From positions 10,746,499-10,810,498 of the forward strand of contig CM026551.1 in the NCBI GenBank assembly GCA_015143295.1: a DNA stretch of 64,000 nt. Reading direction: 5' to 3'. Shown here in pieces: positions 6,083 through 62,331 of the stretch; within the stretch, counting starts at the first letter, position 1; each line of letters starts with the position of its first letter. This DNA is from Tetracentron sinense (Eukaryota > Streptophyta > Magnoliopsida > Trochodendrales > Trochodendraceae). Made by a program: the position numbers and the translations under genes. The notes under the pieces were generated by a model. It was given only the letters and a program-made list of their open reading frames with translations. It made no database searches and was not told the DNA's origin.

Positions 6083-6523
6083 TCTTAAAAAGGGTGTTTG
6101 GGGGTGTATAAAAGTAAAACGTACACTAAATATGTGATGTATTTTGGGTCTCTCAAAGAATCCAGGTATATTTAGGGAAAGTTCCCTTTTTTTTACGTCT
6201 AAAATTTTCATATATAGAAAGTGTGGACCTTTCATATCTCTTCCTGCTTCATGCTGTATACCTAAGGATCATGAGCTGGTTGGCATGAGATCTGCCCAGT
6301 CATATTGATCTCGATATAAGAATCTCAAAAAGATTTCAGCTAGCTTAACATGGATATTTGAGATTGTCCATAGAATTATTTCCCAAATTACCTTAAATAT
6401 TTCCTAATAAAACTTAACGCAATAAATAATATATACAACCAATAGTACTCGTTGTTTCTTTTATGTATAAAATAAATAGACCATTCTATGTGTAGTGGTA
6501 TTGAAGAAGACAAAGATTGAACT

Positions 6524-26454: not shown

Positions 26455-26670
26455 AAATAGTCACCTCCTCGGCGGCCGAGGAGGTGAGTTACCGCCTCGT
26501 CCCCACTTTTTGGGCCACGTGTCCTCTTTTTTTCATTAACTGTGGTTACACCCCTAAGGTCACACAGTTTTTAGGGAAAATATTTTTAAAAAAAATTAAC
26601 CACTTTAAAAAAAATTACCACAGGAGGTGGTTAATTTTTTTAACCACAGGAGGTGGTTAATTTTTTTAAC
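26455..26670. mobile_element. Fragment of MULE-like MITE carrying a G-box
   Basis: Starts ATAGTCACCTCCTCGGCGG. In inverted orientation it matches the right half of the element at 60552-60819: the CCTCCTCGG hairpin, a CTCGTCCCC segment, GGGCCACGTGTCCTCTTT and a TTAACTGTGGTTA motif. The CACGTG at 26516-26521 is a canonical G-box about 380 bp upstream of the MYC2-like start codon. The far end is lost in an A/T-rich stretch. Confidence 0.65.
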
Positions 26671-33060: not shown

Positions 33061-33449
33061 CAGTGCACGGAAACTTGAGCTGTCCCTTCCTAAGTAAGCC
33101 TAACTATTTAAGTTGGTTTAGAGTCACATACGGCTCAAGGGAAAAAAAAAAATTAGGAAATAGTCAACTTACCCATGAAATCCATTTACAAATCTAAGGC
33201 GGGACCTTATTGGTCCAGCCCTACCTTAGGTTTAGAAATGGATTTTATGAGTCCGCTTATCACTACTCAAAAAAACTCTCTCCATTTGCTTTTCTTTTTG
33301 CAGACGTACTACCTTCCTTTCTCCTCTTTGTCAACCTGACCCAGTGACCAACTATTTCTAGTCAATTGCAATTGAACTCAACTGCACCACAAGTGTTGGG
33401 TTCAAACACGTGTCTCTTTTAATCATTATTAACTACCGTTAATATGTGC

Positions 33450-35095
33450 TAACTCTTAAGATTCAACAATCTAACTTTATTTATTAGGAAAAATATTAAC
33501 ACTAAGGTTTACCTTTTTTTAACAAGAGAATTTTTTTTGATAATATTTAACCCTTACGGTTAATATTAACCCTTAAGGAAAAAATATTAACCCATATTTA
33601 ACTCTAAGGGTTAATATTTTTTTAACAAGAATGATTTTGGGTTGATAATAACCCTTAGGGAAAAAATATTTAAAAAGGGGATGAATCTTAACTCAAGGTT
33701 AGATGCTTTAACCTTAAGAGTTATTGAATCTTAACTATAGTTAAAGGGAGTTAGAAGGGGGACATGTTAATTTTTTTTCTAAAAATCAAGGTTATATGCT
33801 TTAACCTCAAGGATTAGTGAATCTTAACTGCAGTTAAAGGGAGCTAAAGGGGACACATTAGTTTTTAAATTATTTTTTTCTAAAAACCAAGGTTAGATGC
33901 TTTAACCCTAAGAGTTAGTGAATCTTAACCACAGTTAAAGATAGTTAAAAGGGGGCACGTTAAATTTCTTTAAATACCAAGGTTAGATTCTTTAACCCTA
34001 AGAATTAGTGGACCCTAACCATAGTCAAAGGGAATTAAAATACAAGTTAACCTTAAGGGTTAGTGAATCTTAACCACAGTTAAAGATAGTTAAAAGGTGA
34101 TACGTTAAATTTCTCTAATACCAAGGGTAGATTCTTTAATCCTAAGAATTAGTCAACCCTAACCACAGTTAAAGGGAATTAAAATACAAGTTAACCCTAA
34201 AGGTTAGTGAATCTTAACCACAGTTAAACATAGTTAAAAGGGGACACGTTAAATTTCTTTAAATACCAAGGTTAGATTCTTTAACCCTAAGAATTAGTGA
34301 ACCCTAACCACATTTAAAGAGAATTAATATACAAATTAAAATTTTTAATTTTTTTCTTCTCAAAACTAAGGTTGGATGCTTTAACCCTAATAGTTAGTTG
34401 ATCTTAACCATAGTTAAATGGAATTAAAAGGGGACATGTTAAAATTTTAATTTTTTTAAAACCAAGGTTAGATGCTTCGATCTTAAAGGTTAGTGAGCCT
34501 TAACCATGGTTAAAAGGAGTTAAAAGGCACGTTAAATTTCTTTTATTTTTCTTTCTAAAAACCAATGTGAGATGTTTTAACCTTAAGAGTGAGTGAATCT
34601 TAACTATAATTAAAGGGAGTTAAAAAGGGACACATTAATTTTATTTAATCTTTTTTTTCTTCTAAAATCCAAGGTTATCTGCTTTAACGTTAATGGTTAA
34701 TGAATCTTAACTACAATTAAAGAGAGTTAAAAAGGGAACACGTTAATTCTTTTTCTTTGAAAAGCTAATGTTAGATGCTTTATTTCAAAGGGTGTGAATT
34801 TTAATCATAGTTAAAGGGAGTCAAAATGGGGCAAATTACCTACAAGGGTTAAAACTTGTTAATCATAGATTAAGGGCAATGAAAGGCTTTGTGAGGTTAT
34901 GAAATATCTTAGGGGTATAATAATCATTTTACTAACAATAACAAATGAAAGTGTAACAATACTATGGGTTGAGTTTGTTTGTCTAACCGTTGCAAAACCA
35001 TGAGTTAATTTATAATATTATTAAAAAGAAAACAGTTTATTTGCAATGCAGTTAGAATGTAGTAGCTATGGCAAAATCCCACTTTTTTAATCTCA
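33450..35095. mobile_element. Satellite-bearing TIR element, copy 1 (left end lost)
   Basis: About a dozen degenerate units of roughly 90-110 bp fill 33480-34830. Each contains AAGGTTAGATGCTTTAACCC, a GGTTAGTGAATCTTAACCA segment, AGTTAAAGGGAGTTAAAAGG and GGACACGTTAA. The right part (34850-35095) matches the right terminal region of the copy at 58252-59708, including AGGGCAATGAAAGGCTTTGT and GTTGCAAAACCATGAGTTAA. The left inverted terminus is not found. Confidence 0.75.
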
Positions 35096-35377
35096 TGGGC
35101 CTTGTGCAACTCTAAACCGACTTAAATAATTAGGTTTAGTTACTAAAGAACAGCAAGCTCAAGACTCAAGAGTTTTCGTCAGTTTCAATCATCTCGAGGA
35201 GAAATCTAACTTTCACACCTCTACAGTATGCACTATCGAGTGTTTTTAATCAATTCTTTTGTTTAAAAGTGTGATCAACAAGAAGAAAAATGAAGTCCAT
35301 ACCTCATTGTGTTTTTGACAATTCAAGTACAAAATTCATGCTCTCGTCATCCCATGGAGCACTTGGAATAAAAGAGG

Positions 35378-35547
35378 GGAAGCTTCTGAGACCTCATTAA
35401 GGCCGAGACCACTCAGACCATGCTCTTATTATAGCATGAGATTTCAGGTGGGGCCTACCATGTGAAATGGGCCCCACCTGAAATCCAATGCTCTTAGAGC
35501 ATGGTCTTGGTGGTCTTGGCCCTAATAGAGTCTCAGTAGCAAAGTCC
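35378..35547. mobile_element. Palindromic MULE-like MITE, copy 2
   Basis: 170 bp, the same family as 11614-11783 with shared core GTGAAATGGGCCCCACCTGA. The flanks TAAAAGAGG and TTAAAGAGG match at 8 of 9 bases, supporting a 9-bp target duplication. It lies just beside the RNase H remnant of the gypsy element. Confidence 0.9.
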
Positions 35548-35689
35548 TTAAAGAGGTGTGTAGAGGCCTTTATTTTGTGCACACCCTTTTGAAGCAGCGG
35601 TTTGGTCTCGACCAAAGTGCCCTAACCCTCCAACATGAAGCTCATTGATGTGATGATGCCGCTGAGATCTCCATAAAAGGATGCCATCA

Positions 35690-36225
35690 TAGACTAAAAA
35701 ATCTTCATGCAGTTCATTTTCACTTACTTTTTTTATACATCACCAAAATAACGATCGTTAGCATATGGGCTTTAAATCTCAACAAAATCCATGAAGGGCA
35801 TCTTCATGGTGTTTAGAAGCACCATATGACGACTAAGTGCATCTGCGACTTGATTGAGCCGTTCACTTCTATGTTTCAACACAAAGGTAAAACTCTTGTA
35901 GAAATCTCACACATGTTGCATGTCGATGATTGGAATTTCCTTGATTATTGATGTGCTTAAGCCTCTCATGATCGAATTTCAAAATGAACTTCCTTTGAAT
36001 AAATCATGTCTCCAATGATGTAGTCCTCGTCCTTGTACGATGGCATAGAATTTCAAGTATTATGTAGAACATTTTTGCCTTACTTCTTTGAGCTTTTTAC
36101 CAAAGAAAGCGATGAGACGACCTTCTTGGCTTAGCACACCTCCAATGCCCATATGAGAGGTATCACAGTCGACTTCCAATATTTTCTCAAAATCCGGTAG
36201 CATGTGTGAGGTAGAGGCAACCTTG
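35690..36225 (-). pseudogene. Ty3/gypsy RNase H remnant
   Basis: On the minus strand, [20 protein letters not shown] and [17 protein letters not shown] are the start of a Ty3/gypsy RNase H domain. They are followed by degraded HHWRHDLF and, further on, NQVADALSRH, which marks its end. Frameshifts and stops interrupt it. It lies 5' of the integrase remnant at 31880-32140 in the order expected of one element. Confidence 0.85.
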
Positions 36226-37684
36226 TCTATTAATCATGCGTTTTAACGACACATGACATTCTTTTTGAGTGTACCAAAAAAAAATCCAATGAGCAAGTCT
36301 CCCTTCAAGTAGAAAAAAAATTATTCTACTAGAAGAAAGTCTAGGCCGTCCGATTAGATAGTAAAATTACAACCTAGGTTGTGTCATATAAAACTTAGTA
36401 CTTAATGCTTACCTGACTAATTAGGGTTAATAGCGGATATTTTCAATATCAAATCAAACGATTTAGATATTTTTGATTGAGTTGATTTTTTTGTCATGGG
36501 TTAAGAAATTGGAGCTAAGCATTAATTTTATTTATTCTCAAAAGGTATCATGTGTCATTCAAATTTGCATGCATACGCTTCCTTCTTGCAAGGTATTTCT
36601 TGGCTCAACCCTCCGGCCTCAAGTAGAAGGGTCTAAAAATTAGGGCAATAAGCTATAGGTTATAACAAAAAACGCCTTTGGTTTAGAGGGCTAGGCCCGA
36701 CCACCCTCCCTGAGGGCCGGTTTGAGTCTACATTATCACGACCCTAGAAGAAGAGGAGACATTGGGTATTTTTCTATTCAGTATTCACATCAATTTCATA
36801 TTGGGAAATGGAAAACGGATCGCACAAGGTCAGCTTACAAGCTGACCCGGGATCTCTTTGTTCCACGCCCACTTTTTACCGACCATCAATTGTGGTTAAG
36901 ATTCACTCACTCCTTAGGGTTAAGCAATCTAACCATGGTTTTTTTTAAAAAATAAAATGATTAATTTTTTTAAATTAAGCTTAACTATGATTAAAAATAT
37001 GTTAAAAGGGACATGGGGACACTGCGGTCGGACCACGAGGGCCTCTTCTCAGTACTCCTCTTTCGTATTTACACATAAACGTGTATTTTGGCACGTGTAT
37101 TTTGGCACGAGGTGATAGCATGCATCTTGCATCTTTTATTGGACATCACGTACGTATCTGTGGTCTTTGACACCCACTAATTATGGTTAATATCCGCCCA
37201 TTTTTAGGGTTAAAAAATATAATATTAATTTTTAAAAAAATTAATTACATTAACGAGTGAAATCATTACCAAGGTTCATTTTTCAAAAATATATTCTTTT
37301 TAAAAGATTAGATTATTTAACCTTAAATATAACTGAATCTTAATCATGATTAATGGATGTCAAAAAAGAACATTTGGCGAGCTGGGGAGGTGTGCCTGGG
37401 CAATGCATACTATCACCTTAGGCATTCTATCACTCAAAGGGAATGTGCAATACATGCTATCACTCCCGCTCGTTAGAAGTCTCCTTATGATGATCCGAGC
37501 CGAGCCGAGCCGAGCCGAGTGTGAATATCGGGCATCTGCCAGAGGTAACCGTTGTCAAATAAAAAGTATCCGAAAAAGGCAAAAAAAAAGGATATCGCGG
37601 TTTTTCGTATATTTCTAGTTTTCCCTGAGGAGGTATCTAGGTTCGTAACCCTTTCCTCCTCTCGGAGAACTCTCTGTCACTCTC
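36226..37684. other. Upstream of the ARF-GAP gene, with two module copies
   Basis: Copies of the shared module lie at about 36880-37015 (TTGTGGTTAAGATTCACTC, TTAGGGTTAAGCAATCTAAC) and 37170-37360. A GAGCCGAGCC run at 37498-37520 recalls the MITE at 808-1279. The pyrimidine-rich stretch from about 37640 to the ATG is probably the 5' UTR. Confidence 0.5.
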
Positions 37685-49600: not shown

Positions 49601-52600
49601 TTTCGCTTTGCTTCTCGTTTTCGTTTCTCGCTCTGGTAACTATGTTGTATACTACTACACCGCTTGCAGGCTTGGGTATAAATACAACATTAACTATATG
49701 AAATTAAAGAAAAACCCGACGGACAAAGACAAAGACTTGAATTACAGTAGTCTTTGGGAGTCTTTGGGAATAGGTTGAAAGAGAAGGTGGAAAGTTGCAT
49801 GTAATTGAGAATTTTTCAGAAGATAGAAAGTAGTTGGAAGATGGAAACTCTGGCTCTTGGTGTCGAGTCTTGTAACATTTAGAGAGAGAAGAGGGGCATA
49901 GGAAAGACAAAAAGTTTGTTAGATATTAAATTGTTGGGAGACGAAAAATTTGACTGATTTTGGAAACGTGCCTTTGAAAAGGGTTGGAACTTGGGGATGA
50001 ATAGTTATTTTTTATAGAAGTGGGTGAATAATGCTATTGTGGTGGGCCCCATTGAATGAAAAAGGTGTGAGGATGTGGTAAAATAAAGCAAAAATAAATA
50101 ACAATGAGGGGTGCCACATGTAGGCACCTCTATTCTATAAGATACAGTATAATGAGTACTTTTCACTACTGGATTTTATTCATATATTAAACATTTTGTA
50201 GGAGGATTTAGAAGTTTCTCTATAAACAGAGTAAGAAAGGAAACGAACAAATAACTGTTTATCTGTTCCGCGAAAATCATCTATTTTACCAATTAAAATA
50301 ACATACAATACTCATATGGTGGAAAATAAATACTCAAATATTGTATTTTAATCTTGTCAGAGAATCAAAGGCATTCAATGAACTCATGAATACTATCCTC
50401 CTTTCGTAGTAAAGTTGCGACATATTCCTCATCTATTTCTCTTCTGCGATCCATGATCTCCTATAGAGTTTGGGGTTGAACCTTGGTCCAGCCTGTGCAA
50501 TTTCCTCTATCATATTCATGAACTGAGGATAGAAGAAGCATTTGCAGGTACTTTGTTGAAGAAGCACTGCACATGTAAGGCTTACATTCCATGGACCTGT
50601 ATGCTATTTTAATATGCTTTGAAGCATTTTGCAAGTGCTAAGCCTCGAGGATGATTCGAGGCATATGCCCCAAATGTTTTTTTAATGACTTTGTTTTGAA
50701 GTAAATCAATACAGAATAATATAGATCCATGGATATCATTCAAAATTTATGGATCTATGGTTATTACAACCTATTCTACCTATTGACCATAGAAAGCCCA
50801 AAACTTGAGGTTTGAAACCTAGGGTTTCAAGATTTAAATGTTTGGATTTGAAGCTTGTTTCTTGGTTTCAATTAAAAAATGGATTACCGAAATAGCGTGT
50901 AGGAGAGAGGAAAGAAAAAGAGAAAAAGTAGGGTATTGAAATTGTTAAATAGCCAGCCGTTATGGTTGGCATTATGTAAAGGCCGTATCGGCCATTAGTG
51001 GATTTTCCGTTACATAAAGCTGATGTGACGTTATGCAACTTTATGAGCTTTTTATCGTGTAACATGGCGTAGCCTTGCGAAACCATTACATAGTGGTTTC
51101 GGCAATTTTTGATACCATGGACGTGATAGTTAAGAAGACAAGCTTTTAGTTAAATATTAATTGTATGTTTTGTTTTTCCTCAAACTTATGGATGAATCCA
51201 TGAACACCACATGTAATTCCAACACTTATGGTTATATATATGCAATTGCAAGATAGATCAACTCAAAATAATCAATCTGTCTAGATGGGAGCATGCATAT
51301 GTCAAGATGAAAATTTAAATCTGCCTGCCTCCCCCCATGGATTGTAGATTCGTGAAGTAGGAGTAAGACTAAGCTCTAGGCAGAGGAATCTAGATTGTAA
51401 AGAATTTTTAGACTCCAATTTTCTTTTATTGATTTTTGTTAATAGGACTGCCAAGAAACCAGCTAGAGGTTTCTTATCAAAAAAAAGAAAGAAAGAAAGA
51501 AAGAAAGAAAACAGTTCTTTGGATTTTTCCATCCTATGATGGGTCTTAGCTCACCAAAATCGTTGCAGCTCAATACTTAAGTCTGATTCTGAAATTAGCA
51601 TGGAGCTAAGGCCTTTAATCTTGAGAGGATATGTGGCACATTGCTGCATGGATTGTTGGGCTCTTGATGGGTTGTACTTGATCTTCTTTACTGCATCAAG
51701 TCAAACTTGGCTGGGTTCAATCTGTCCAATTTTCACAGGTTCAAGTGGTGGCAGGGGCGGAGCCAGGATTTTTGGCCGGGGGGGCTAATGGTAAGGTGTG
51801 GGGGTTCGGGGGCGTAGGCCCCGAAAAAAAAATTAGTGCCAAGTTTGTGGGTCATCTCATCTCTTTGTCTGTTGGTAAAGAATATAGTTTTGAGTAATGA
51901 TGATTAGCGGACCGGCTGCTTAACTTACCGTCGTGTCCTCGTCCCTTTTAACACTCCTTTAATCCTAATTAAGGTTACCAAAATTAAATTTAAGATTTTT
52001 ATTGTTTTTTTCTTCTAAAAAACTAGGTTGGATTGCTTAACTCTATGGGTGAGTGAATCTTAACCACAATTGGTAAGTGTTAAAGAGGGCCGTGGACCAA
52101 TGAGGACCGGCCATTTCATTACATGATGGAAAACACTGGTAATTTAAGCATTTTCATATGCCTACGCCATCTTAAATTAAATAATATAAATATATAAAAA
52201 AAATTTCTTCTCAAAATGTTCAGGGGGGGCTTAGATCCCCCACCACCACCCGGCTTTGCCCTTGCTCATTGGCCACACCCACATTACACTATACAATAAA
52301 AAAAAATCCCAAAAGTTGAGGGGGGGCTTCAGCCCCCCCGGGCCCCATGTGGCTCCGCCCCTGAGTGGTGGTAACATCATGGACTAAGAACTTCATTTAA
52401 AAGTTATATTAATTGTATAAATCATGATTATGTACTGTCCTTCCTCGGTTTTCTTTCCAGAGGAGCTCCGCCTTCTATACATCAATGCTGTATAGAAATC
52501 TCGACAAAAAATGTCTTTAGACTTGAGCACCACAAACGTGTGGATTATGCGTTGATTTTGGTGATATTCCCGAATGTTGTTTACTTTAAAGACATGCTGT

Positions 52601-55600
52601 AGAGGAGGTGGGCCCCAATATGATCCCTTCTTGGTGTTTAATCACGAGGAGAGCCAGAAACTGAATGAAGTGAGCAGTGTAATCAAAGTGTCCAAGTGAT
52701 GCCTAGGCGATAGGGGGGTTCCCTAGGCGAGGCAATGCCTAGGCATTTTTATTAGGCGATGCCTAGGCGACCAAAATGTATTTATTTTGTTTACATTATA
52801 TAATATTATTTAAGAATTATTGAGTGCCTCCCTAGATCATGAACTTGGCGATAGGGGTCCTGGCTAGGCGAGGCGGTGGCCTAGGCGACATTTTGGCTAC
52901 ACTGGAACTGAGTAATTTATTTTCTCCAGTTTCTTCTTTGTGTTTTTATTCAAGGCAGTTATTTAATCCGGAGAATTGAGATATGAGGAGAGAAGGAGAA
53001 GGAGGAGCTGATACTGAAAACGCTATTCACATAAGAGAGTAATCTGTGACAATTCTGTGTTTATGTTTCCTGATTTGTACTTATGAGTGCATAAAATTCA
53101 ATGGATTTTACATTTGGAGTGTTCCGATTGGTGTTAATTTCTTAGTTCATTTTGATTTTGACTTTATCTGACACAAATACGGTAATCAGTTAGTATTGTG
53201 TTCCGAAGGGTAAAGGAATTATATCTGTTGTCCAAAGTTTTAAAACGGCAAGGTGTGAGGTGAGGCATTTGGACCTAATACCTCACGCTTCCTCATTTTG
53301 TAGATAAAAAATAATTAGAAATTAGAAAAAATTGCAATATATATATATAGAAGTGCTAAACAAATTATTCAATCATCGTTTATCAAGAAAAGTAAGTCTC
53401 AGAAAGGCAAGCAAAAGCTGCAATCTAAATATACATTTCTATTCATATACTTATTGCAAAATAGATGATGCTTTGTCATCAATTCATGTACTACATTTTG
53501 GATTCCAAGAGACAACTGCAAAGAATTCTTGAAGAGGGACAAATGAAGAAAGAAAAAATAATTTCAAAAGCCATAAGTTATGCAGTTAGAACCCAAATTT
53601 AGGTTGACGTATGCCTTAGTTATAAAGAGAGTCACTAGGCGTGGGACAATTATCTCATGTGAATCTCACACTATGAGGTGTGAGCCTCAAGGTTAAGCCT
53701 CTTTAAGCCCCGCCCGGGGCGAGCCTTGTGGCGTAAGTCTCACATGCCTTTTAAAACACTGATCTGTAAAACATTCTCCAAACGAATGTTAGTCATTTAC
53801 TCATCCCACTGATGTCAGATTTACTCTTTAATCTTAGGGTTGATGTTCTGCAGATGACAGTTGCATTTTGTGTTTGTCCAGTAATTTCCTTACAGAATGC
53901 TTACCTATGTGGATATCCTGTTTGCTAAATTTATGAATACTTTTCCTTTATTCCAAGTGCATTGAAACTCGAGTGTAGTGTTGATCTCATTTTAGTTGCT
54001 GCAGTGAGTTGAGAGTTCCTTTCCAACTTCCAAGAAACTTTTCTAGTGACTAAAGTTCATATCCAATGATAGTTAAAGGGACAATGTTTTAGGTTGGACT
54101 TTCAATTGTACATTGATTCTCTATTTACACCACCTCAAGCCAAAGCATTGTCTAACTGGATAGCCCCTTTAAAGTACATTTACGCAAAGTTATTCCTGTA
54201 CTCCCATTCTGATTTCAGCAGTCTTGATGGAGATCGAATCAGAGCCAATTGTGATTGAACTCGGGGTGAATTCAATCTCACCCACAGGCCAACACGTTTC
54301 CCTTTTAATCCCAATTAACTGTGGTTAAGATTCACTAACCCTTGGGGTTCAACTGTGTAATCTTAGTTTTTTTAAAATATATTGAAAAAAATATTATCTT
54401 TAAGGGTTAAAAATTCTTAACCACGGAACACTTTTTAAATATTTTTTTTCTTCTAAAAACCAACATTATATTGTTGAACCCCAAGGGTTAGTGAATCTTA
54501 ACCACAATTTATAGGGGTTAAAGGGACACGTGTTGGCCTGTGGCCTGTGGGTGCGATTGAATTCTCTCTGAGTTCAATTGAAATTGGCTCTGATTCGATC
54601 TCCTCGTCTTGATGGTACCCTTCCTACTCTCTAGAACATGCTTAGGACCTTATGTTCCTATTCTTTTGATCTCTTTATAGCGATTTAATTGCATATAATA
54701 CTTAATTTTCATATAATAAGGTTAACTTATTGGTACTATTTAGAGTTTGAATCATGTTGCCAATTTACCATATGATTTGCTGTACTTCACTGTCTGATCA
54801 GTTGGCTTGCATCTATGATGCATGTGCTCTGTCAGTACTCTGATGCTCTTACAACCCATCATTATCAGATTCAGGAAACTGATGAAGCAAGGAAGAAGTT
54901 CTCAAATGCGAAGTCTATTTCATCAGCCCAATTTTTTGGAGATCAAAACAAATCAGGTGACATGGAAGCTCAAGCTTCCTTGCAGAAGTTTTCGGTATGT
55001 GCAGCTAGTTACCATCAATGTTATAGTTTGGCAATATTACAAACTTGTTAGAAAAGGTGAACTCTGTATCTACTTGCAAGTCGCAGTTTTTTGAGGATTC
55101 TTCAACTTCCCTCATGAAGGGAATTCTTAGATCAAAACCCATTGGATCTTTTCATAGTAACTGATTCCATTCTGCCTGTACTGATCTTATCTAATCAGGA
55201 GTAGGATCAAGGAAGGCATCTTTATTTCCCCTTCTTTATGGATTCAAGTTCATTAACCTTTTTGTGGATTTCTGACTGATCTATATATCATTTCTATTTT
55301 TTTTTTATAGAGTTCAACAGCCATCTCCAGCTCTGATCTTTTTGGTCACGATGTGGATGATTCCCGACTTGACTTAACTGCAGCTGACCTCATCAACCGT
55401 TTCTCTTTCCAGGTATATGCATTGTGAGTTTGTTGTGTTTCCAGTTGCTGACCTTAAAATTGATAAATTAGAACAATCAAGCAGAAGGTTGTGCTTGTCA
55501 TGTTAAAGTCTCATTCTTGCTAGAACATGTCTGCTTGCTCTTGAAATTAAGATATATATATAAATATATATATATGATGACTAGTTGATACCTTATTTCA

Positions 55601-55764
55601 CTCGGAACCTTGGACTGAGCTTATTTTGGCTTAATCTTTTTGTTTTGCCTCTGCAGGCATCACAGGATATCTCATCCCTTAAGAATATTGCAGGAGATAC
55701 TGGGAAGAAACTCACTTCCCTGGCATCCAGTTTTATGACGGATCTTCAGGATAGAATCCTCTGA
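37685..55764 (+). CDS. AGD8/9: ARF GTPase-activating protein, AGD8/9 (ArfGAP2/3, Glo3) type
   Basis: Seven exons: 37685-37753, 37906-38024, 44945-45383, 45494-45754, 54869-54994, 55311-55412, 55657-55764. All junctions are GT-AG and the frame is kept, giving 407 residues, close to plant AGD8/9. The zinc finger is Cys25-x2-Cys28-x16-Cys45-x2-Cys48, followed by the catalytic arginine finger Arg53 (CIDCSAAHR). [16 protein letters not shown] and [16 protein letters not shown] complete the ArfGAP fold by about residue 110. The C-terminal part has the ISSxxxFG repeats typical of ArfGAP2/3-Glo3 (SISSAQFFG at 312-320, AISSSDLFG at 342-350), which link the protein to coatomer. It should stimulate GTP hydrolysis on ARF in COPI traffic at the Golgi. 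Introns 2 (6.9 kb) and 4 (9.1 kb) are swollen by insertions. Exon 5 has two in-frame acceptors 6 nt apart (54869 or 54875), so 405 or 407 residues. Confidence 0.93.
38025..39396. other. ARF-GAP intron 2, 5' part
   Basis: Mostly unannotatable intron sequence. A CT run lies at about 38505-38528. CCTAGGCGCCCAGGTGCTC-like text at 38820-38910 is a degenerate relative of the MITE pair at 45823 and 52676. Confidence 0.45.
39397..40382. mobile_element. Outer hAT-like element in intron 2
   Basis: Starts CCAAGGATTTAAAACCAG and ends GATTTTTATTACCAT, weakly inverted. The flanks ACACTCGG and GCACTCGA share six central bases. Subterminal text such as AACCGAAACCACTATGTATC and CCGAAATCGATATGTATCGA places it with the CATGGTTTAAAA family. 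It is interrupted by the MITE at 39815-40260. Confidence 0.55.
39815..40260. mobile_element. hAT-like MITE nested in another MITE
   Basis: A perfect 8-bp duplication CCGATATG flanks it (39807-39814 and 40261-40268). The termini are TAGGGCTGTAAACGGATCGG and, inverted, TAGGGCTGTCACTGGATCGG. The interior has repeated GGATCAGATC-like text. The host sequence is the hAT-like element at 39397-40382. Confidence 0.92.
41336..41665. mobile_element. hAT-like MITE in intron 2
   Basis: The flanks GGATAGGA and GGATGGGA match at 7 of 8 bases. The inner ends contain ATAGTTATCATG and, inverted, ATAGTTACCAAGTC, with TTCACGAA/TTCGAGGTGAA-type text near both. No coding is seen. Confidence 0.6.
42010..43136 (+). 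pseudogene. 5'-truncated L1-type LINE remnant
   Basis: The frame at 42046-42261 reads [20 protein letters not shown] then [14 protein letters not shown], matching the zinc-binding region after plant LINE reverse transcriptases (zf-RVT). It resumes after a MITE insertion at about 42902 with [17 protein letters not shown] from the same domain. The tail ends in an AT run, TTTGTTTGGATTATCGATAA and an A-tract at about 43127-43135, as plant L1-like LINEs do. The 5' edge is approximate. Confidence 0.75.
42269..42848. mobile_element. hAT-like MITE nested in the LINE
   Basis: The flanks GTTCAAAC and ATTCAAAC match at 7 of 8 bases. The ends are CAAGGTTTAAAAAAATGG and, inverted, CATGGTTTAAAAAATCATCG. 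The subterminal region carries the palindrome-rich TTACGTAACGCCGTTACGTA. It splits the zf-RVT region of the LINE at 42010-43136. Confidence 0.9.
43541..44944. other. ARF-GAP intron 2, 3' part
   Basis: No element with definable ends. TATGTATGTGGATAAAT-type text at 43900-43930 forms an imperfect inverted repeat with 43845-43900. The exon 3 acceptor is TTTTTTTTCATCCAG before 44945. Confidence 0.5.
45823..46044. mobile_element. CCTAGGCGA-type MITE, copy A (intron 4)
   Basis: Starts AGTGTAGTCAAATTGTTGGC, followed by TAGGCGATGCCTAGG and TCGCCTCGCCTCGCC. It matches the inverted right end of the element at 52676-52903. The right edge (ACTTTTACTACATTGG) is approximate. Confidence 0.65.
46272..46400. 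repeat. 68-bp tandem duplication
   Basis: GAAATAAAAAAGACAAAATA and GAAATAAAAAAGAAAAAATA start two units, both followed by AGAATGACAAAATAAAA and TGATTCAGGCT. The units lie near the presumed 3' end of the candidate Helitron. Confidence 0.85.
46810..47804. mobile_element. 995-bp hAT-like element with perfect duplication
   Basis: GTCTCATT flanks both sides (46802-46809 and 47805-47812). The ends are CATGGTTCAAAATATCGG and, inverted, CATGGTTTAAAATATTGA. TATCGGTATCGG-type text fills the subterminal parts. No transposase frame remains. Confidence 0.93.
47896..48096 (+). repeat. tRNA-derived SINE with 13-bp target duplication
   Basis: Contains an A-box-like TGGCTAGGACC and a B-box-like GAGTTTGAATCC, and ends in a nine-A tail. 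The flanks AATGAAATCCCTT (47883-47895) and AATGAAACCCCTT (48097-48109) match at 12 of 13 bases. Confidence 0.88.
48133..48868 (-). pseudogene. Exon-like captured gene fragment, source unknown
   Basis: Minus strand. A last exon at 48133-48515 follows a CTCAG acceptor and reads [20 protein letters not shown], then [14 protein letters not shown]. After one frameshift it continues [37 protein letters not shown] and a Gly/Ser/His-rich tail to TAA at 48133-48135. A 61-nt exon-like piece at 48601-48661 ([17 protein letters not shown]) has AG and GT at its borders, and a diverged duplicate lies at about 48739-48793. A possible first exon begins at ATG 48866-48868 ([19 protein letters not shown]). Codon-like texture over several exons argues for a former gene. 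I do not recognise the family, and the frameshift argues that it is not functional here. Confidence 0.55.
49253..49650. mobile_element. Degenerate GGAAGC-rich MITE
   Basis: The left part (GGGAAGCTCGCTTCTTAGGA) and the right part (GCTTCCCGCTTTCGCTTTGC) show inverted similarity. Inner edges such as AAGCTATGTACAGGG and CTCTGGTAACTATG suggest the ends. No target duplication could be fixed. Confidence 0.45.
50143..51743. other. ARF-GAP intron 4, middle part
   Basis: The right end of a CATGGTTT-type hAT element is visible at about 51060-51119 (CGAAACCATTACATAGTGG, ending GATACCATGG), but its left end is not found. A GAAA microsatellite lies at about 51483-51510. No coding was found. Confidence 0.45.
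51752..52363. mobile_element. hAT-like MITE, ends CAGGGGCGGAGCCA
   Basis: A perfect 8-bp duplication AGTGGTGG flanks it (51744-51751 and 52364-52371). The termini are CAGGGGCGGAGCCAGGATTT and, inverted, CAGGGGCGGAGCCACATGGG. Subterminal GGGGGGGCT and AGCCCCCCC runs mirror each other. A smaller element carrying the shared module sits inside at about 51895-52110. Confidence 0.93.
51895..52110. mobile_element. Module-bearing element nested in a MITE
   Basis: The left edge has GCGGACCGGCTGCTTAAC and the right edge GGACCAATGAGGACCGGCC, partly inverted. Between them are CTCGTCCCTTTTAACACTCC, AGGTTGGATTGCTTAACTC and GTGAATCTTAACCACAATT, the shared module. The exact ends are uncertain. Confidence 0.5.
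52676..52903. mobile_element. CCTAGGCGA-type MITE, copy B (inverted to copy A)
   Basis: Begins AGTGTAATCAAAGTGTCC and ends CATTTTGGCTACACT. Repeated GCCTAGGCGA occurs near both ends. Its orientation is opposite to the copy at 45823-46044 in the same intron. Confidence 0.75.
53231..53761. mobile_element. hAT-like MITE in intron 4
   Basis: The flanks ATCTGTTG and ATCTGTAA share six bases. The ends are TCCAAAGTTTTAAAACGGC and, inverted, CAGTGTTTTAAAAGGCATG. Subterminal GTGAGGTGAGGC mirrors GAGCCTTGTGGCG-type text. The frame at 53332-53532 inside has no motif. Confidence 0.7.
54231..54605. mobile_element. Palindromic MITE with 10-bp target duplication
   Basis: GTCTTGATGG lies at 54221-54230 and 54606-54615. 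The arms AGATCGAATCAGAGCCAATT and, inverted, the same text, continue through CCCACAGGCCAACACG and GTGGTTAAGATTCACTAACC for well over 120 bp. The centre is A/T-rich. It carries the shared module, with a G-box (GACACGTG) in the right arm. Confidence 0.9.
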
Positions 55765-56403
55765 GGAAGATTCATCATCATCAGATTCTGATGTGTGCAT
55801 TCTCAAGAATCTCTGAAGAACTCCCTATGATACCAGACAATTTCTAGTACATGTTAAAAGAGCTTGTTATAAATTCTTTTGGAAGATGAAAATAGGATTT
55901 AAATTCTCCAAGTTGCTGCTTGGGCGGGTGGAATTAATATTTGAAATTTGATATATGTCCAGTCTTGCACGTTTTAGTATGGATTATCAGTTTCCATTGT
56001 TGGGCCAATCCCAAGTTTCATACTGCCCTCTGTATTAAGAGTTAGGTTGAAGTTGAAATGATCAGCATTACAATATTACATGTTTTAGGGGTTAAAACTG
56101 TTGTGCATCTGTTTCCATCTTTTCCTTCATTAGATTTTAAAAAAAAAAAAAAAAGTCTGTATCTGGGAAGTTTTTCTAGTGATCAGCCTCGAAATATTAT
56201 TGTTAAGACTTGTTACACAGGAACCCTAGAACCGTGCGCACTGGTTTGGGATTGTTTAGGCAGAGATCGACAATAGGAAAAAGTAACCTACGAATGATTA
56301 CCCCTTGACCGTACTTTTTCTACATGAATTGGCACACCTTGGAGTGAAAATTTTCTTTAGAGCAGACTTTCAATCCCCTGCTCCACCAGCTTTAATGCTT
56401 TAA
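55765..56403. other. ARF-GAP 3' UTR and flank
   Basis: The first few hundred bases after the TGA are the likely 3' UTR. No certain polyadenylation signal was identified by eye. An A-tract lies at 56139-56153. Confidence 0.5.
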
Positions 56404-56419
56404 TCCTCTCGTCATTCCA

Positions 56420-56540
56420 CACCACACCCCGCCTCTTGTGCCAATGGTGGGGTGTGGCCTCTCTTCTGCGTGAGGTCTTAGGATCCATTTCCTGGGTGAT
56501 GAGTAGCAAGAACTCCAAGATATCCTCCAACAAAAAAAAG
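56420..56540 (+). repeat. Short SINE with perfect 16-bp target duplication
   Basis: TCCTCTCGTCATTCCA flanks it at 56404-56419 and 56541-56556. It starts CACCACACCCCGCCTCTTGT and ends in an eight-A tail. It shares text with the SINE at 32155-32345. Confidence 0.92.
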
Positions 56541-56637
56541 TCCTCTCGTCATTCCAACTCAGATGAAGGGGTCATTATAGTTATTTATTTTATTATTATT
56601 ATTATTATCATTTAGCTACTGTTAGTAGCATCCGGTA

Positions 56638-56857
56638 GGGGGCTGGATTTGATCTGGCTCTCGCCTGACCAAAATCATCCTGCTTCTACATAACACGGTG
56701 ACATGTGGTGATAAAAAGGGGAGAAATATCAATTGGGGAGAAGTCAAAAAACAGGGGAGGTAATAAAATGACTTCTCCCCTATTTATCGCCACATGCTGG
56801 ATGTTTTGTGGAGGCTGGATGATTTTGGTCTGGTGAGAGCCAGATCAAATCCAGCCC
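56638..56857. mobile_element. Palindromic MULE-like MITE
   Basis: The arms GGGGCTGGATTTGATCTGGC and, inverted, the same text, continue through GACCAAAATCATCC. The flanks CATCCGGTA and CATCAGGTT match at 7 of 9 bases. Inner TGACTTCTCCCCTATTTATC mirrors GGGGAGAAGTCA. Confidence 0.85.
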
Positions 56858-57002
56858 CATCAGGTTGTGGTTAGCAGCGGGGATCAAGTTGTACCACAAT
56901 GGGAGTGGATACCAAGACCTCTCTTAGAAGTATGGGGTCCCGATTATGATGTAATTCATTGTTTGCTTTGAAATAGGTTTAAGAATTCAATACTTATCTA
57001 CA

Positions 57003-57154
57003 AGCCTAACCATATGAATTTATAGGAATCAATTCTTAATGTTAATGGTTGAGATTTTGTTATGTGTACTTGGAGTAATGTAGCCTAACCAAATGAATTT
57101 AGAGGAATCTATTCTTAATGGTTGAGATTTTGTTACGTGTACTTGGAGTAATGT
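57003..57154. repeat. Tandem duplication, about 79 and 73 bp
   Basis: GCCTAACCATATGAATTTAT and GCCTAACCAAATGAATTTAG start two units at 57003 and 57082. Both run to GTACTTGGAGTAATGT. A second small duplication (TAAGTAATTTTAAAAGTAC) follows at about 57277 and 57328. Confidence 0.85.
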
Positions 57155-57384
57155 GATAAGGAGTAATGTGGTAGTAGAGCATGTACCATTTCGTTGTATA
57201 ATTTCTCATTTGCTATTATCAATTTTATTCATATGCTTGAGTTGTGTTTTATGCAAGAAAGGTTTTCATACGTTTTTAAGTAATTTTAAAAGTACAATAA
57301 ATAAATGAAGAAATAATTCATATTTCTAAGTAATTTTAGAAGTACAATAAGGAAGTAAACAAACAATTCTGCATATGGCAATTG

Positions 57385-57548
57385 CTTTCCAGTGTTGGGT
57401 TCGACTTCTCATTCCCCCTTCGGGGCCAGTCCCGCATGGATTTTCTTGGCTTACCTGGTGTGGCCGGGTTGCAATCTCTCGTCGCACCCTCAGGAAATAT
57501 TCCTTACCCAAAGGGTTGGGGACATCCTGAGTTTCCAAAAACCACATT
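57385..57548 (+). repeat. SINE copy, 5' truncated
   Basis: B-box-like GGGTTCGACTTCTC at about 57398, then CCCTTCGGGGCCAGTCCCGC. The flanking GCAATTGC occurs at 57377-57384 and 57549-57556, a likely target duplication. This copy shows the uninterrupted sequence that is split in the SINE at 627-1318. Confidence 0.75.
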
Positions 57549-57587
57549 GCAATTGCCGAAAAAAAAAAAAAACACATGGAATCATCT

Positions 57588-57808
57588 ACGGTTATAACCG
57601 GACTCCTTGGAGTCTAGTTGCAACACAAATGCCTTTTTAAGTGTTTTTAACTCTAATCATAAAATTAATATTTTTTTTTAAACCAAGGTTAGATGATTGA
57701 ATCTTAAAGGTTAGTAAATCTTAATCACAATTAATCATAATTAAAGGTACTAAAAGAGACACGTGTTGACTTATAAGACTAACAGGACTCCAAGGAGTAA
57801 GGTTATAA
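57588..57808. mobile_element. TIR element carrying the shared module
   Basis: The left end GGTTATAACCGGACTCCTTG and the right end CTCCAAGGAGTAAGGTTATA are inverted relatives. The interior has CAAGGTTAGATGATTGAATC, GTAAATCTTAATCACAATT and GACACGTGTTGAC. The target duplication is unclear. Confidence 0.65.
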
Positions 57809-58251
57809 ACTTATTTTTAATGTTTTTTTAATAAATATTTATAATATATTTATTTACATGATTAATATAAGTAAACCAAACTAAGGAACTAAGCGAACCG
57901 AGAAACGAATTCTTTTATCATATTCCTACCGAATCAGGTTCACTCTAAAGTGACGAATTGCTAACCCGAATTCGAACAAAGCGAATAGACGAACTAGATA
58001 ACATTAGATAGAACGATAGAGAATTACAAGTCAAAAACGAACATATGGATAACGATGTGGGTGTAAATGGATACGAATATTATAATATTATCCACCTGAT
58101 TCGTTTCCTAATAATAGTTTTACTATTTGTTTGCTTGGGTGTAAATGGTACATATTATCGGATTCGTTTACAAATAAGTAATTTTGGACACAAATTCATA
58201 TATAGAAATATCCAATTTAATAATATCTAACCAATTATAATAATGAGGTTA
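57809..58251. other. Intergenic, nothing recognised
   Basis: AT-rich with CGAATTCG-type text. No gene. Confidence 0.4.
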
Positions 58252-59708
58252 TTGCATATCTGCTACATTCTTGCTACTTTGCAAATACATTGTTATAAAT
58301 AACAATTTTATAAATTAACTCATTGTTTTGCAGCAACTAGATAAAGAACCTCCATCCATAGTTCTGTTAAGGCTTTCGTTTATAGTTGTTAATCAAATAA
58401 CTATTATGCCCTTAAGAGATTTCATAACCTCACAAACCTTTTTTAACTACTCTTGAACTATGATTAATAAATTTTAGCCTCTATGTTTAGTTTTTTTTAA
58501 TCTTTTCCTAAAACTCAAGATTAGATGCTTTAACCTTAAGAGTTATTGAATCTTAACCATAGTTAAAGGGAGTCAAAAGGGGACACAATATTTTTTTTTT
58601 ATACTTTAACCCTAAGGATTAGTAAATCTTAACCATAGTTAAAGAGAGTTAAAAGGGGACACAATATTTTTTTTCTCAAAACCAAGGTTTGATGCTTTAA
58701 CCCTAAGGGTTAGTGAATCTTAACCACATGTAAAAGAAGTTAAAAGGGGCACACTAATTTTTTAATTTTTTTTTTAAAACCAAGGTTAGATGCTTTAACC
58801 CTAAGTGTTAGTAAATCTTAACCAAAGTTAAAGATAGTTAAAAGGGGACATATTAAATATTTTTAATTACCAAGGTTAGATTCTTTTCCTAAGGGTTAAT
58901 GAACCCTAACCACAGTTATAGGGAGTTAAAAGACATGTTAATTTTTTGTTTTTAAAAGCCAATATTAGATGGTTTAACCCTAAGGGTGAGTAAATCGTAA
59001 CTACTGCTAAAGGGAGTTAAAAGGGGACACATTAAATTTTAATTTTCTTACAAACCAAGGTTAGATGCTTTAATCTTAAGGGTTAGGGAACCTTAAGCAT
59101 GGTTATAAGGAGTTTAAAGACATTAAAAAGAAAAACGGACACGTTAATTTTTTCTAATTTTTTTCTTCTAAAAGTCAAGGTTAGATGCTTTAACCCCTAA
59201 TGGTTAATGAATCTTAACCATAGTTAAAGGGAGTTAAAAGGGCACGTTATATAATTATTTACCTTTTAAAACCAAGGTCAGATGCTTTAACCCTAAGGGT
59301 GAGTGTATCTTAACCACAATTAAAGAGAGTTAAGTGGGACATGTTAATTTTTTTTAAAACCAAGGTTAGATGCTTTACCCCTAAGGGTGTGAGTCTTAAT
59401 CATAGTTAAATAAAGTTAAAATGAGATAAATTAACCACACAATGCTGGGTTAGAACTTGTTAACCATAGTTCAAGGCAATGAAAGGCTTTATGAGGTTAT
59501 CAACTATCTTAAGGGCATAATAGTCATTTTTTTAACAATAATAAACGAAAGTCTTACGAAACTAAGGGTTAGGTTGATTCTTTAACAGTTGCAAAACCAT
59601 GAGTTTTTTCGCAAAACTTAATTGTTTAACAGTTGCAAAGCCATGAGTTAATTGTTACACATTACAATGTATTTGCAAAGCATGTAAAACGTAGCAGTTG
59701 ATATGCAA
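58252..59708. mobile_element. TIR element with internal satellite array, complete copy
   Basis: Ends TTGCATATCTGCTACATTC and, inverted, TTGCATATCAACTGCTACG. Inverted similarity extends about 200-250 bp on each side, through CTTTGCAAATACATTGT, AACTCATGG/TGTTTTGC, CTTTCGTTTAT and ACTATTATGCCCTTAAGA. Between the arms (about 58490-59420) lie roughly ten degenerate tandem units of 85-100 bp of the module type. No coding. The copy at 33450-35095 shares the array and right arm. Confidence 0.8.
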
Positions 59709-59713
59709 AAAAA

Positions 59714-59716
<3 letters not shown>

Positions 59717-59770
<54 letters not shown>
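59717..59770. repeat. AT microsatellite
   Basis: An almost pure AT dinucleotide run beside the right end of the preceding element. Confidence 0.95.
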
Positions 59771-59774
<4 letters not shown>

Positions 59775-59987
59775 TTATATTTTTAAAGTAATCGGATAAT
59801 TTAGATATTTTTTGAATTTTAATATTTTAACCGGAGTCTATACAAATATCATATTTTACTATCCATTGGATTTTTTTTCGAATTAAGATATTTAATCTGA
59901 TAGGAATTCAGATATATCACCATTTGCTCTAATTTGGTTCTGTTTACAACTCTACATGTAGACCCTAAACTGCAACTCATTTATAAA

Positions 59988-60227
59988 AGTAATAGTCCCC
60001 TCCTCAATGAGGAGGAGACTATTCATCCTCGCCCTCACAAAGCCCCTTTGAACTAGGGTTAACAAATTTTAATGCTTGTATTTTTTTTCTAAAAACAAAG
60101 ATAAGTTATTTTAACCTTAAGGGTTAAGAAATCTTAATCACGGTTACAGATTAAAAAAGGAACACGTGGCACAAAAAAGGAGGCTAAGACAATAAATCAC
60201 CTCATTGGGCCAAGGCGGTGATTTCCT
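59988..60227. mobile_element. MULE-like MITE with perfect 9-bp duplication
   Basis: ATTTATAAA lies at 59979-59987 and 60228-60236. The ends AGTAATAGTCCCCTCCTC and, inverted, AGGAAATCACCGCCTTGG are related. Small hairpins (CCTCCTCAATGAGGAGG) sit at the left end. The module (AGGGTTAAGAAATCTTAATC) and a CACGTG at about 60163 are inside. Confidence 0.88.
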
Positions 60228-60551
60228 ATTTATAAACCGGATGCAAAATTAAAACCAATAAAAAACTGCTTAACCCAAGCCCAATTATAAGTACGTTGAG
60301 AAAATCTAACCCGACACGGGTCTAACCCGTGAAAAGGCATACGGGTTGATGAGTCTGAAGTTGGCACTGATAATCAAAACCTCTTAAGGATTTTGGCTGC
60401 GTGAGAACACTTAAGGGGTAGAAAGGGAGAGGCGACGCCATGGTAGACTGACTACTTATTCTAAACCTAGCGCATGGTATTTTCCTCCGCCCAAACCCGG
60501 CCTTTGAGGTCTAATTTGTCGTATGTGAACTGTCCTCGTTTTGATATATAT

Positions 60552-60819
60552 ATGAGCAATAGTCACCTTCCTCGTGATGAGGAGGGGACTATTCCTTCTC
60601 GCTCTCGCAAACCCTTTGAACTATGGTTAAAAAATTAACCATATGATATGATTAATTTTTTTAAAAATATTTTTTTCTAAAAACAAAAGGTAGATGTGTG
60701 AACCTTAGGGGTGACTGAATCTTAACCACAGTTAATGGGAGTAAAGAGGGGACACGTGGCCCCAAGAAAGGGGGACGAGATGGTAAGTCACCTCCTCGGA
60801 CCGGGGAGGTGATTATTTT
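60552..60819. mobile_element. MULE-like MITE, same family as 59988-60227
   Basis: The left end GAGCAATAGTCACCTTCCTC and the right end GGGGAGGTGATTATTTTTC are inverted relatives. Both flanks are TATATA runs, as expected of insertion into an AT repeat. It carries the module, CACGTGGCCCC and a CCTCCTCGGACCGGGGAGG hairpin. The piece at 26455-26670 upstream of the MYC2-like gene is part of this family. Confidence 0.8.
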
Positions 60820-60982
60820 TCTATATATATATATATATATAGGCATGGCGTAAGGGGTAGTCTTATTCAAAAGATTTTGGTTGGTGATGGGGAAATGGAA
60901 ACTAAGGGCCTCGAAAGTCCCCTATCCTTGTTGTCAACACTCGTTCAACACTAAAGTTCAAACATTTGAAATTCTTGTGGTA

Positions 60983-61150
60983 CACAGCAGAGCTTTGTCT
61001 CAGCGGTAGTGTATCTCCTGTTTTGAGGGAGGTACCGGGTTCCATTCCCGAGAGGGTGAGAGTTTGTGTATACTCTCCACCCACCCACTAACGGATACTA
61101 ACACCTAACTGGCAATACGGCCCAAATGTATATCTGGGAAAAAAAAACCT
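60983..61150 (+). repeat. tRNA-derived SINE
   Basis: Contains CTCAGCGGTAGTGTATCTCC (A-box region) and GGGTTCCATTCCCG, a perfect B-box. The two match tRNA spacing, and an A-tail ends at about 61148. TTGTGGT occurs on both sides (about 60975 and 61153). It cannot be a working tRNA gene because the acceptor ends do not pair. Confidence 0.75.
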
Positions 61151-61589
61151 GTTGTGGTGTAAACCATAAATATACATAAGTTAAAACTACATCTTCGAAT
61201 AACATTCATAAGCTTACCCTTATGACACCTTAGCGGGCTACCTGTGTTTGTGTTAGTTACATCCATGATATCATTTCAACTAAAAAAAATAGCGTACAAG
61301 TTTAAAATGCATATTGAAAGATTGTGATGGTATTTCGTTGCCTCAACAGCTTTGCTTTTGGTGTAGTTGTGTTCAACCCAAAACAAAAAAAATATATTGT
61401 GATGAGCCATTAGGATTATGTTCACAGACGATACAGGGGATTGTTAACTTTCATGAATCCAGTGAATTCGACAACTTTTTTTTTAACCTTTAAATGGCTA
61501 ACTCATATAATTGGAACACTTGAATAAAAAAATATAAAAATATTTAGCTGGCGTGCATTCTGCTATTGCAGTCCTCTTTTATCCATGCC

Positions 61590-61745
61590 CCCCTTTTAAC
61601 ACTCACTCATTGTTAAGATTGACTCGTCCCTAAGATTCATCCATCCAGCTTTGGTTTTTAGAAAAAAATAAACAATATTAAAATTAATTTAGTTAAGCTT
61701 AAACATAATTAAAAGAATGTTAAAAGGGACATAGGACACCACGGT
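61590..61745. mobile_element. Module-bearing repeat fragment
   Basis: CCCCTTTTAACACTCACTCA, TGTTAAGATTGACTCGTCCC and GTTAAAAGGGACATAGGAC resemble the copy at 36880-37015. The ends are not defined. Confidence 0.5.
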
Positions 61746-61940
61746 TGACTAGATCAGGGAATGCCGGATCCACTAATCACACCTCTAAAAACATATGATG
61801 GCCAACAAGTACACTTGTTTGTCTATAAGTTTTGTTCTATATTTATTTCATTAATGTTTCCTACTTATGGGACTTGTTCAAATATTCAAAGGATAGACAA
61901 ATTATAAGTGAAGTTGACTTACTAATCTTTAATATATATA

Positions 61941-62331
61941 CTAGCGGGTGGCACGTGAGAGCGAGGGGAAGGAGTTAACCAGAGTTAATAGAAGTTAAAA
62001 GGGACACATGTTAACCCGTCGGTGCGATTGAACTCGTTAGTGGCACGTGCGATGCACGTAAGAGCGAGGGGAAGGAGTTAACCACAGTTAATAAGAGTTA
62101 AAAGGGTCACATGTTAACTCGCGGGTGTGATTGAACTCTTCCTGAGTTCAATTGCGATTGACTGTGATTCAAAATAGATAGATGAGCAAGGGTAGTTTCG
62201 AAATTAAAAAGGCAAGGGATAGTTTGAGAATTAAAGCAAACATTAAGCCAAAGTTTTGTTTTTATATAAGCGTAGTATGGAAATTTCAGAAAAATCATCT
62301 ACGGCTGCCGCTGGCATTATAATAGTAAAGA
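61941..62331 (-). mobile_element. Non-autonomous Helitron, 391 bp
   Basis: The minus-strand 5' end TCTTTACTATTATAATGCCA follows an A. The 3' end is CTAG before T, preceded by GTGCCACCCG. A second 3'-end-like unit with the intact GCACGTGCGATGCACGT hairpin lies at 62040-62060, so the 3' end is duplicated by a roughly 95-bp repeat. Each repeat includes the shared module (GAGTTAACCACAGTTAATA). Confidence 0.75.

Follow-up and report, generated by a model that had tools for sequence, protein, structure and literature searches.

Families of miniature inverted-repeat transposable elements (MITEs) are usually recognised by their ends, the inside being free to vary. Here we describe a clan of small transposons in which the core is kept and the ends vary, found in a stretch of 64,000 nt of the Tetracentron sinense genome (GenBank assembly GCA_015143295.1, contig CM026551.1, positions 10,746,499 to 10,810,498 of the forward strand; "the window" below means this whole stretch). 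Our comparisons with described systems hold for the passages of each report that were available. MuTAnT of Medicago truncatula resembles the elements described here in being of the Mutator-like element (MULE) type and mostly MITE-sized, with modular terminal inverted repeats (TIRs), a strong hairpin and 9-nt duplications, and its TIR mask, GGGGTTTGC.., resembles by eye the end GGGGTTTTTGC.. of the family that we call A (PMC4486113). MuTAnT, however, is one family with a related autonomous element, whereas here several ends sit on one core and no partner was identified (PMC4486113). The Tm1 Mutator/Foldback elements of root-knot nematodes likewise have composite TIRs, variable tandem repeats, mostly 9-bp duplications and MITE-like members, but those members have common terminal motifs, while here the terminal part varies and the inner part is common (PMC3169594). 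Muta1 and other MULEs of Aedes aegypti have the terminal palindromic motif, the subterminal tandem repeats and the duplications, there 8 to 9 bp long, that recall our elements; non-autonomous Muta1 copies have the TIR and subterminal region in common and vary inside, the reverse of what we find (PMC5225508). Our clan is a variation on the foldback MULE MITE in which this Muta1-type pattern of kept ends and varied insides is turned round. The mixed ends reported below can be likened to those of Galileo in Drosophila mojavensis, where twelve copies have TIRs of two groups, and where ectopic recombination and conversion have been proposed to exchange ends and to yield new subfamilies (PMC3573991). 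Galileo differs in belonging to the P-element superfamily and in the non-matching 7-bp flanks of its chimeras, and the passages describe no end segment of fixed length (PMC3573991). The top-ranked openly licensed literature contained, in the passages available, no account of this clan or of a fixed-length exchange of MITE ends, which is not proof of absence.

We favour, with a probability of roughly 0.6, the reading that the window elements are foldback MULE MITEs which share a core built around a short module and whose ends have been exchanged between related MITEs. Seen directly are a shared core, different ends, a usual spacing of 64 nt between terminus and core border, 9-bp duplications, hairpins, a Helitron junction and a few mixed borders. 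The clearest case is a pair of families, T1 and T12. We aligned the 393-nt T1 element of the window with 18 of the 21 T12 elements available. In all 18, nt 49-51 of T1 and of T12 mark the start of the main alignment, which in 16/18 stops at T1 nt 343-345, 48-50 nt from the T1 end; it ends early in L029 and L033. Over the ~295 nt aligned in those 16, the core is 79-89% identical. The outer 48-50 nt of T1 and T12 are unrelated, and on the left their lengths are equal in 18/18. Compared as arms, with a composite of copy L140 and the window element standing for T1, the two families are ~31% identical over nt 1-48 and ~97% over nt 49-112. T1 and T12 thus have a core in common and 48-50 nt that differ at each side. 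The claim that had drawn attention to this DNA, that one sequence is common to elements with different termini, therefore stands, and in the tested pair the borders of that sequence are sharp. A T12 border on one side with a T1 border on the other occurs at 2 places, compared with 188 places that have the pure T12 pattern (188 per strand, the pattern being palindromic). Chimeras with mixed borders are thus apparently present but rare, the expected outcome if they seldom move. T12 is young, to judge from the 96-100% identity of the 40 sequences that best match its queried end, and with their common core and different ends T1 and T12 make end exchange directly testable.

The other families can be compared in the same way. 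Among seven arm types (T7, which has no border, was left out), the inner 85 nt align in 21/21 pairs (p 0.003, the floor of the test). For the outer parts, 16/21 pairs are unaligned; those that can be aligned are T3-T1, T3-T13, T12-T1, T5-T3 and, weakly, T5-T8, and the T12-T1 and T5-T3 matches sit at the inner edge. The outer segments of T12, T2 and T5 are mutually unaligned (p 0.08-0.94), and so are those of T1 and T13 (p 0.57), though each of these resembles T3. The outer ends of T1 and T3 are alike, and on the inner side T1 is T12-like (65/67) and T3 is T5-like (73/80). There are two ways to read this: new ends were acquired by T12 and T5, with T1 and T3 retaining an ancestral one, or ends passed from one lineage to another; both imply that ends were replaced. 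The terminus lies 64 nt from an ACGTGTC border in 20/20 T12 left arms, 16/20 T5 left arms, both T1 arms and 15/20 T2 right arms, the other 5 T2 arms having 63 nt. We also read by eye 60 arms from the first 100 listed of 8,634 module-edge matches, which cover the first 7.3 Mb of contig C1; 20 were taken at every fifth place and 40 were picked for variant inner sequence. Among them, 13 have a T1-type end starting at 64 nt, 4 are less clear T1-type arms (L166, L186, L187 and L194), ~8 are T12-type, 5 are T5-type, and 1 (L184) apparently has a new end at the same place. A short T12 end of 40 nt, which lacks 24 nt of the hairpin part, is found in 6/20 right arms and also in L135 and L185.

MULEs are marked by target-site duplications (TSDs) of 8-11 bp, usually 9 bp, and by TIRs that are often long. 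We scored duplication lengths from 5 to 12 bp with the ends placed by consensus. Flanks matched over 9 bp, with at most one mismatch, in 9/17 T12 copies (3/20 were dropped without a right end, and the right end of L033 is wrong), in 16/20 T2 copies (the left ends of L065 and L066 are wrong) and in 7/13 T5 copies (6/20 were dropped, the right ends of L072 and L078 are wrong and the L072 flank is too short), where two, L084 and L087, lie inside one amplified host repeat. Other lengths gave 0-2 matching copies in these three families, except for 3/17 T12 copies at 5 bp. An assignment to hAT, with its 8-bp duplication, is not supported, as only 2/17 T12, 1/20 T2 and 0/13 T5 copies match at 8 bp. 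T3 fits 9 bp in 3/8 rows, two of the three (L099 and L100) having identical flanks, and T8 in 3/7 rows with ends moved by 2; L107 and L096 in these sets are wrong end pairs, and a 7-bp match at a 1-nt shift (T3 4/8, T8 3/7) is the inner part of the 9-bp match. One A copy, L109, has by eye TTTTGTTTT at both flanks, an exact 9 bp. In the window, the T1, T5 and both T2 elements match at 8-9/9, the T5 and T2 ends being chosen within a few nucleotides. The inference of different mechanisms from TSDs of 8, 9 or 10 bp was accordingly not borne out: the families fit 9 bp, and in view of the 9-bp peak in T2, T5 and T12 we rejected different duplication lengths. A 9-nt duplication is typical of MULEs (PMC4486113). 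Inverted ends are present in T1, T2, T3, T5, T8, T12 and A. Sizes are those of MITEs in T2 (~215-275 bp), T12 (~335-406 bp) and, where the ends are right, T5 (~294-495 bp), A being ~0.7-1.6 kb, and the high copy number, 8,634 exact edge matches, is consistent with that class. Foldback traits are ends that fold beyond shuffled controls (the T8 inner 64-mer excepted) and direct or inverted internal arrays. Because the TIR families fit 9-bp duplications, the module-bearing TIR elements seem to form a single clan of Mutator-like foldback MITEs. The alternative raised beforehand, that all matches belong to one family with misread ends, was half right: there is one clan, yet its ends are truly different.

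Five of six compared ends are hairpin-prone. Against 300 dinucleotide shuffles each, the outer 64 nt were equalled in stability by 1 shuffle for T12, 0 for T2, 4 for T5, 0 for T3 and 0 for T1; the first 90 nt of A were equalled by 6/300 and the outer 83 nt of T8 by 7/300. In 15 T1 arms, hairpin positions pair in 94.9% of cells, and 7 cells are changed on both sides compared with 2.2 in shuffles (0/500), a count in which 4 of the 7 cells are one pair in four rows and in which kinship among these related arms (13 are among the 60) can beat shuffles without structure. By eye, the T3 and T1 stems differ at three apical pairs in which both partners have changed and pairing is preserved. Such a pattern would be expected from selection on structure as well as from palindrome-correcting conversion.

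Several observations weigh against end exchange. The right side of T12 is less regular than the left: the unmatched part measures 48-50 nt in 10/16, with a 24-nt short form in 4, 39 nt in L047 and 44 nt in the L015 copy, which is cut 5 nt short. T12 right arms have 64 nt to the border in 8/20, 40 nt in 6 and 63 or 65 nt in 2, with 4 borderless; T5 right arms have 64 nt in 7/18, with 8 borderless; T3 right arms have 62 nt in 4/7, T8 arms measure 143-149 nt, and the left arms of T2 (20) and T3 (10) are without an ACGTGTC border. About 29/60 of the arms read by eye have no recognised end, many of them within arrays. The mixed-border places are rare candidates, recognised by their borders. Six outer 64-mers are more similar in register than when shifted (0.362 compared with 0.252, 0/2000), as are nt 1-48 taken separately (0.294 compared with 0.250, 22/2000), and this weak similarity suggests that the ends have some common descent. 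The T8 inner 64-mer shows no folding excess (143/300 shuffles as stable), and two further measures of the T1 hairpin are ordinary (both-side-changed pairs 94/500, pair types 215/500). The end copies collected (T12 20, T2 20, T5 20, T8 10, T3 10 and A 6) were chosen by similarity to one query, which lowers the apparent variation of ends. Finally, the MULE domain PF10551 is abundant, with 150 scored matches out of 1,282 candidates, but this domain search tied no autonomous partner to these ends.

Those in-register similarities, and the similar length of the outer parts, fit an account in which nothing was exchanged: one ancestral family would have diverged in place, its outer 64 nt evolving fast under a constraint of length and hairpin and its core staying stable. 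The covariation of the T1 hairpin and the apical pairs changed on both sides between T3 and T1 are also what it would predict. We nevertheless consider it unlikely. T1/T12 identity falls from ~97% to 31% at one position, and at the same place in 18/18; in 4/5 arm sets, whose copies were chosen by an outer query, the outer part varies less among members of a family than the inner part does; and the outer kinship of T1 and T3 conflicts with the inner kinship of T1 and T12. It is less likely still that MULEs with different ends each took up the same core in the manner of Pack-MULEs, in which, in the passages available, foreign DNA is taken up between MULE ends (PMC3169594). Capture by chance would give unequal borders, but the T1/T12 borders are symmetrical (49-51 on the left, 48-50 nt on the right in 16/18) and the usual spacing is equal in four families.

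The earlier note had offered two explanations of a 60-110 bp module: that superfamilies which move by different mechanisms pass it on to one another, or that it is a preferred landing sequence later captured. We built a profile of 71 positions from 14 window units, which match it by construction; with these 14 included, 39 window copies match it at E<=2.6e-4. They cover every site named in that note and add sites at 5762-6010, 21104-21154, 36874-36935, 37166-37364 and 61590-61648. Twenty stretches of 10 kb (200 kb), at regular rather than random positions on contigs C1-C5, were sampled as a census independent of the building units. They hold 28 matches at E<=1e-3 and 0 in reversed sequence, and window and census stretches together give 66 matches, with 0 in the reversed control. 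The 28 matches form 13 clusters, from which we would extrapolate, with wide error, to roughly 75,000 module loci in 1.16 Gb. An exact 20-base module motif occurs 792 times in the 1.16-Gb genome and a degenerate 34-base module edge 8,634 times, each with 0 in reversed sequence. The 28 census matches (0 reversed) and the 792 exact motifs confirm that the repeat is real, but it is part of a larger shared core and not a lone insert. A recognised family end, found with end profiles, lies within 350 bp of the module in 11/13 census clusters and 8/12 window clusters (19/25), and in these clusters the module sits inside the ends. For this reason the landing sequence is disfavoured, and in view of the family ends near most clusters we rejected a landing site or free-standing module. 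The 6/25 clusters without a recognised end, one of which is the T1 element at 5690-6082 (T1 having no profile), and a Helitron family that carries part of the module speak for the two explanations as a whole; the fit of the tested TIR families to 9 bp and the 19/25 clusters near a known end make them very improbable. What survives of the passage among superfamilies is the transfer of a part into one Helitron family, as far as seen; the rest falls within one Mutator-like clan. Least credible of all is that the module is an independent MITE nested in other elements, since, even if it is often an inverted pair and six T5 copies with similar flanks are nested in another repeat, duplications are found at the outer ends (module edges had no systematic search), the module usually keeps a constant distance from the end, and the T1, T5 and T12 modules lie in mirror position in both arms.

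If ends were exchanged, the process might run as follows. MULE transposases supplied in trans would move the elements with 9-bp duplications. Each element has a shared core around module copies, with ends peculiar to its family on either side; the best-studied families have the terminus 64 nt outside the ACGTGTC border, and most ends form a hairpin. A new family would arise when the outermost part of both ends (48-50 nt in the clearest case) is swapped and the core is kept. Such a swap would presumably take place between MITEs with a common core, through ectopic recombination or gene conversion; the palindrome would then allow one arm to pass its new end to the other, and a chimera would become mobile again only if its spacing is suitable. 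The array of family A would be an expansion of the core repeat. We propose more tentatively that the ends are exchangeable cassettes, in which case the core may outlive its transposase by gaining, at both sides, hairpin ends of 48-50 nt that respond to a different MULE; compensatory change would then preserve the hairpin, and the distance between terminus and core border would usually stay at 64 nt. Very many small transposons with one core and different ends, often of equal length, suggest that a mobile core can change its ends and carry on. Should end exchange be true, a classification based on ends would split one lineage into many, and there would be a testable answer to how a non-autonomous element outlives its transposase.

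The core itself appears to consist of copies of one repeat that have diverged, because a profile of the A core matches other families as well, and there between modules too. Counting any profile match, module copies included, it is found in 19/20 T2, 20/20 T5, 6/10 T3, 4/10 T8, 6/6 A and 1/20 T12 elements, with 0 in reversed sequence; the examples, shown for up to four copies per family, include module copies and, in T2, T5 and T3, sites that lie between the two modules. Arrays of family A are direct or head-to-head (L114), and the unit of the window array is mostly 76-107 bp. The ACGTGTC motif resembles a G-box/abscisic acid-responsive element core, and it is plausible that the core is a cluster of protein-binding sites.

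In T8 arms (L089-L098), a 64-nt inner stretch is bordered on its outer side by ~83 extra nt that carry a hairpin of their own, and the L011 copy near 5053 seemingly starts at that inner stretch. New ends may also be added beyond existing ones. A simple nested insertion is probably not the explanation of T8, because no duplication was seen by eye at the inner border.

Helitrons are described as carrying foreign DNA and making tandem repeats, and the one found here does likewise (PMC12628747). Here, however, the cargo is a MITE arm fused beside the 3' end, upstream of 19/20 sampled ends, which is unlike the cases in the passages of that review (PMC12628747). The 3' end, TCCTTCCCCTCGCTCTCACGTGCATC, occurs 4,389 times genome-wide at no more than one mismatch. 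Upstream of 19/20 sampled exact 3' ends on C1 there is a match to the T5 hairpin (at most 6 errors), L129 being without it; by eye, the exact junction GGTTAAC|TCCTTCC is present in 13/20, and the junction of L126 is shorter. The 3' end ..CACGTGCATCGCACGTG..CTAG reads CTAG in 16/20, followed by T in 12, also by eye. The window Helitron at 61941-62331 has the hairpin and CTRR of a Helitron 3' end, next to T. The earlier note had it holding the module, of which just the outer half is present, within a T5 arm. Since the T5 arm and the junction are common to the sampled 3' ends, the Helitron is probably a separate capture of half a T5 arm that was then amplified, and the capture probably happened once. 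A 103-bp unit made of the T5 arm and the Helitron 3' end is nearly doubled at window positions 61951-62138 and also stands in tandem on C1, at three more pairs of sites.

Table 1. Module-bearing elements and related features of the window, in window coordinates.
Feature	Position	Strand	Remarks
T1 element, 393 nt, palindromic	5690..6082		both arms 64 nt outside core border
T1 element, module copies	5762-5815; 5957-6010	-; +	profile matches
T1 element, TSD 8/9	5681-5689; 6083-6091		TCTTAAAAG; TCTTAAAAA
Partial module copy	21104..21154	-	profile E 6.6e-9; no family end nearby, no end pair found
T2-type end arm, truncated element	26452..26514	+	outer-arm profile E 3.4e-18
Weak module match beside this T2-type arm	26531-26560		E 0.021
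Probable chimera	33360..35080		T5-type left arm, module array, A-type right end
Chimera, left arm, degenerate T5-type	33360-33475		by eye, without T5 profile match
Chimera, modules	33415-33475; 33696-34832		inverted; direct array; profile matches
Chimera, right end, A-type	34973-35080		A arm profile match
Module copy of T7 element (single copy)	36874..36935	-	profile match
T7 element, hairpin	near 36826		GGTCAGCTTACAAGCTGACC; by eye; ends not fixed
T8-family copy	37166..37552	-	modules 37166-37364; T8 arm 37378-37552, 63 bits
Module copy in nested piece (~51895)	52026..52092	+	E 2.1e-10; no family end found
T5 element	54230..54605		modules 54299-54363 (-), 54465-54530 (+); T5 arms matched
T5 element, TSD 9/9	54221-54229; 54606-54614		GTCTTGATG; right end set 3 nt past consensus end
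T3 element	57575..57813	+	single module 57686-57747; T3 arm matches, inverted arms; right end diverged
A element, ~1.47 kb	58245..59716	+	A arms at both ends; direct array, 10 module matches 58518-59422
A element, flanks	58245..59716		TSD 3/9 only
T2 element a	59988..60227	+	single module 60105-60149; TSD ATTTATAAA 9/9, best of four end choices
T2 element b	60554..60821	+	single module 60691-60755; TSD TATATATAT 9/9, best of three end choices
Degenerate module pair	61590..61729		61590-61648 E 1.8e-4; 61689-61729 E 0.062
Helitron with captured T5 arm	61941..62331	-	T5 arm 62123-62171; end at 62331 as placed in the earlier note

Among the window elements (Table 1), the one at 33360-35080 is a probable T5/A chimera. 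Tandem modules in a TIR element had been described from 33450 on; the array is there, but the element looks chimeric, with a T5-type left and an A-type right end, and no end pair with a 9-bp TSD reached our thresholds. The same thresholds yielded no such end pair for the copies at 51.9, 61.6, 36.8, 37.1 and 21.1 kb. The TSD of T2 element b is weak, as its target is TA-rich, with TA repeats. The module copy at 52026 is enclosed by a separate element with CAGGGGCGGAGCCA inverted ends (14/14) at 51752-52363.

Six T5 copies (L074, L075, L082, L084, L087 and L088) have similar flanks, of the type TGAGGGGCACCCACCT / CATCCACCTCCATGCC, from which it seems that a T5 insertion was amplified inside another repeat. 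One of them, L074 (C24:7880046-7880650), has a 660-aa frame with a MULE domain ~2.2 kb away (C24:7882831-7883115). A near-copy of the window cluster 54230-60830 lies on the same contig, ~0.42 Mb off, at C1:10378468-10385062 (it includes L007). Its identity to window queries is 99, 99 and 100%, and 91% in another query, which suggests a recent segmental duplication.

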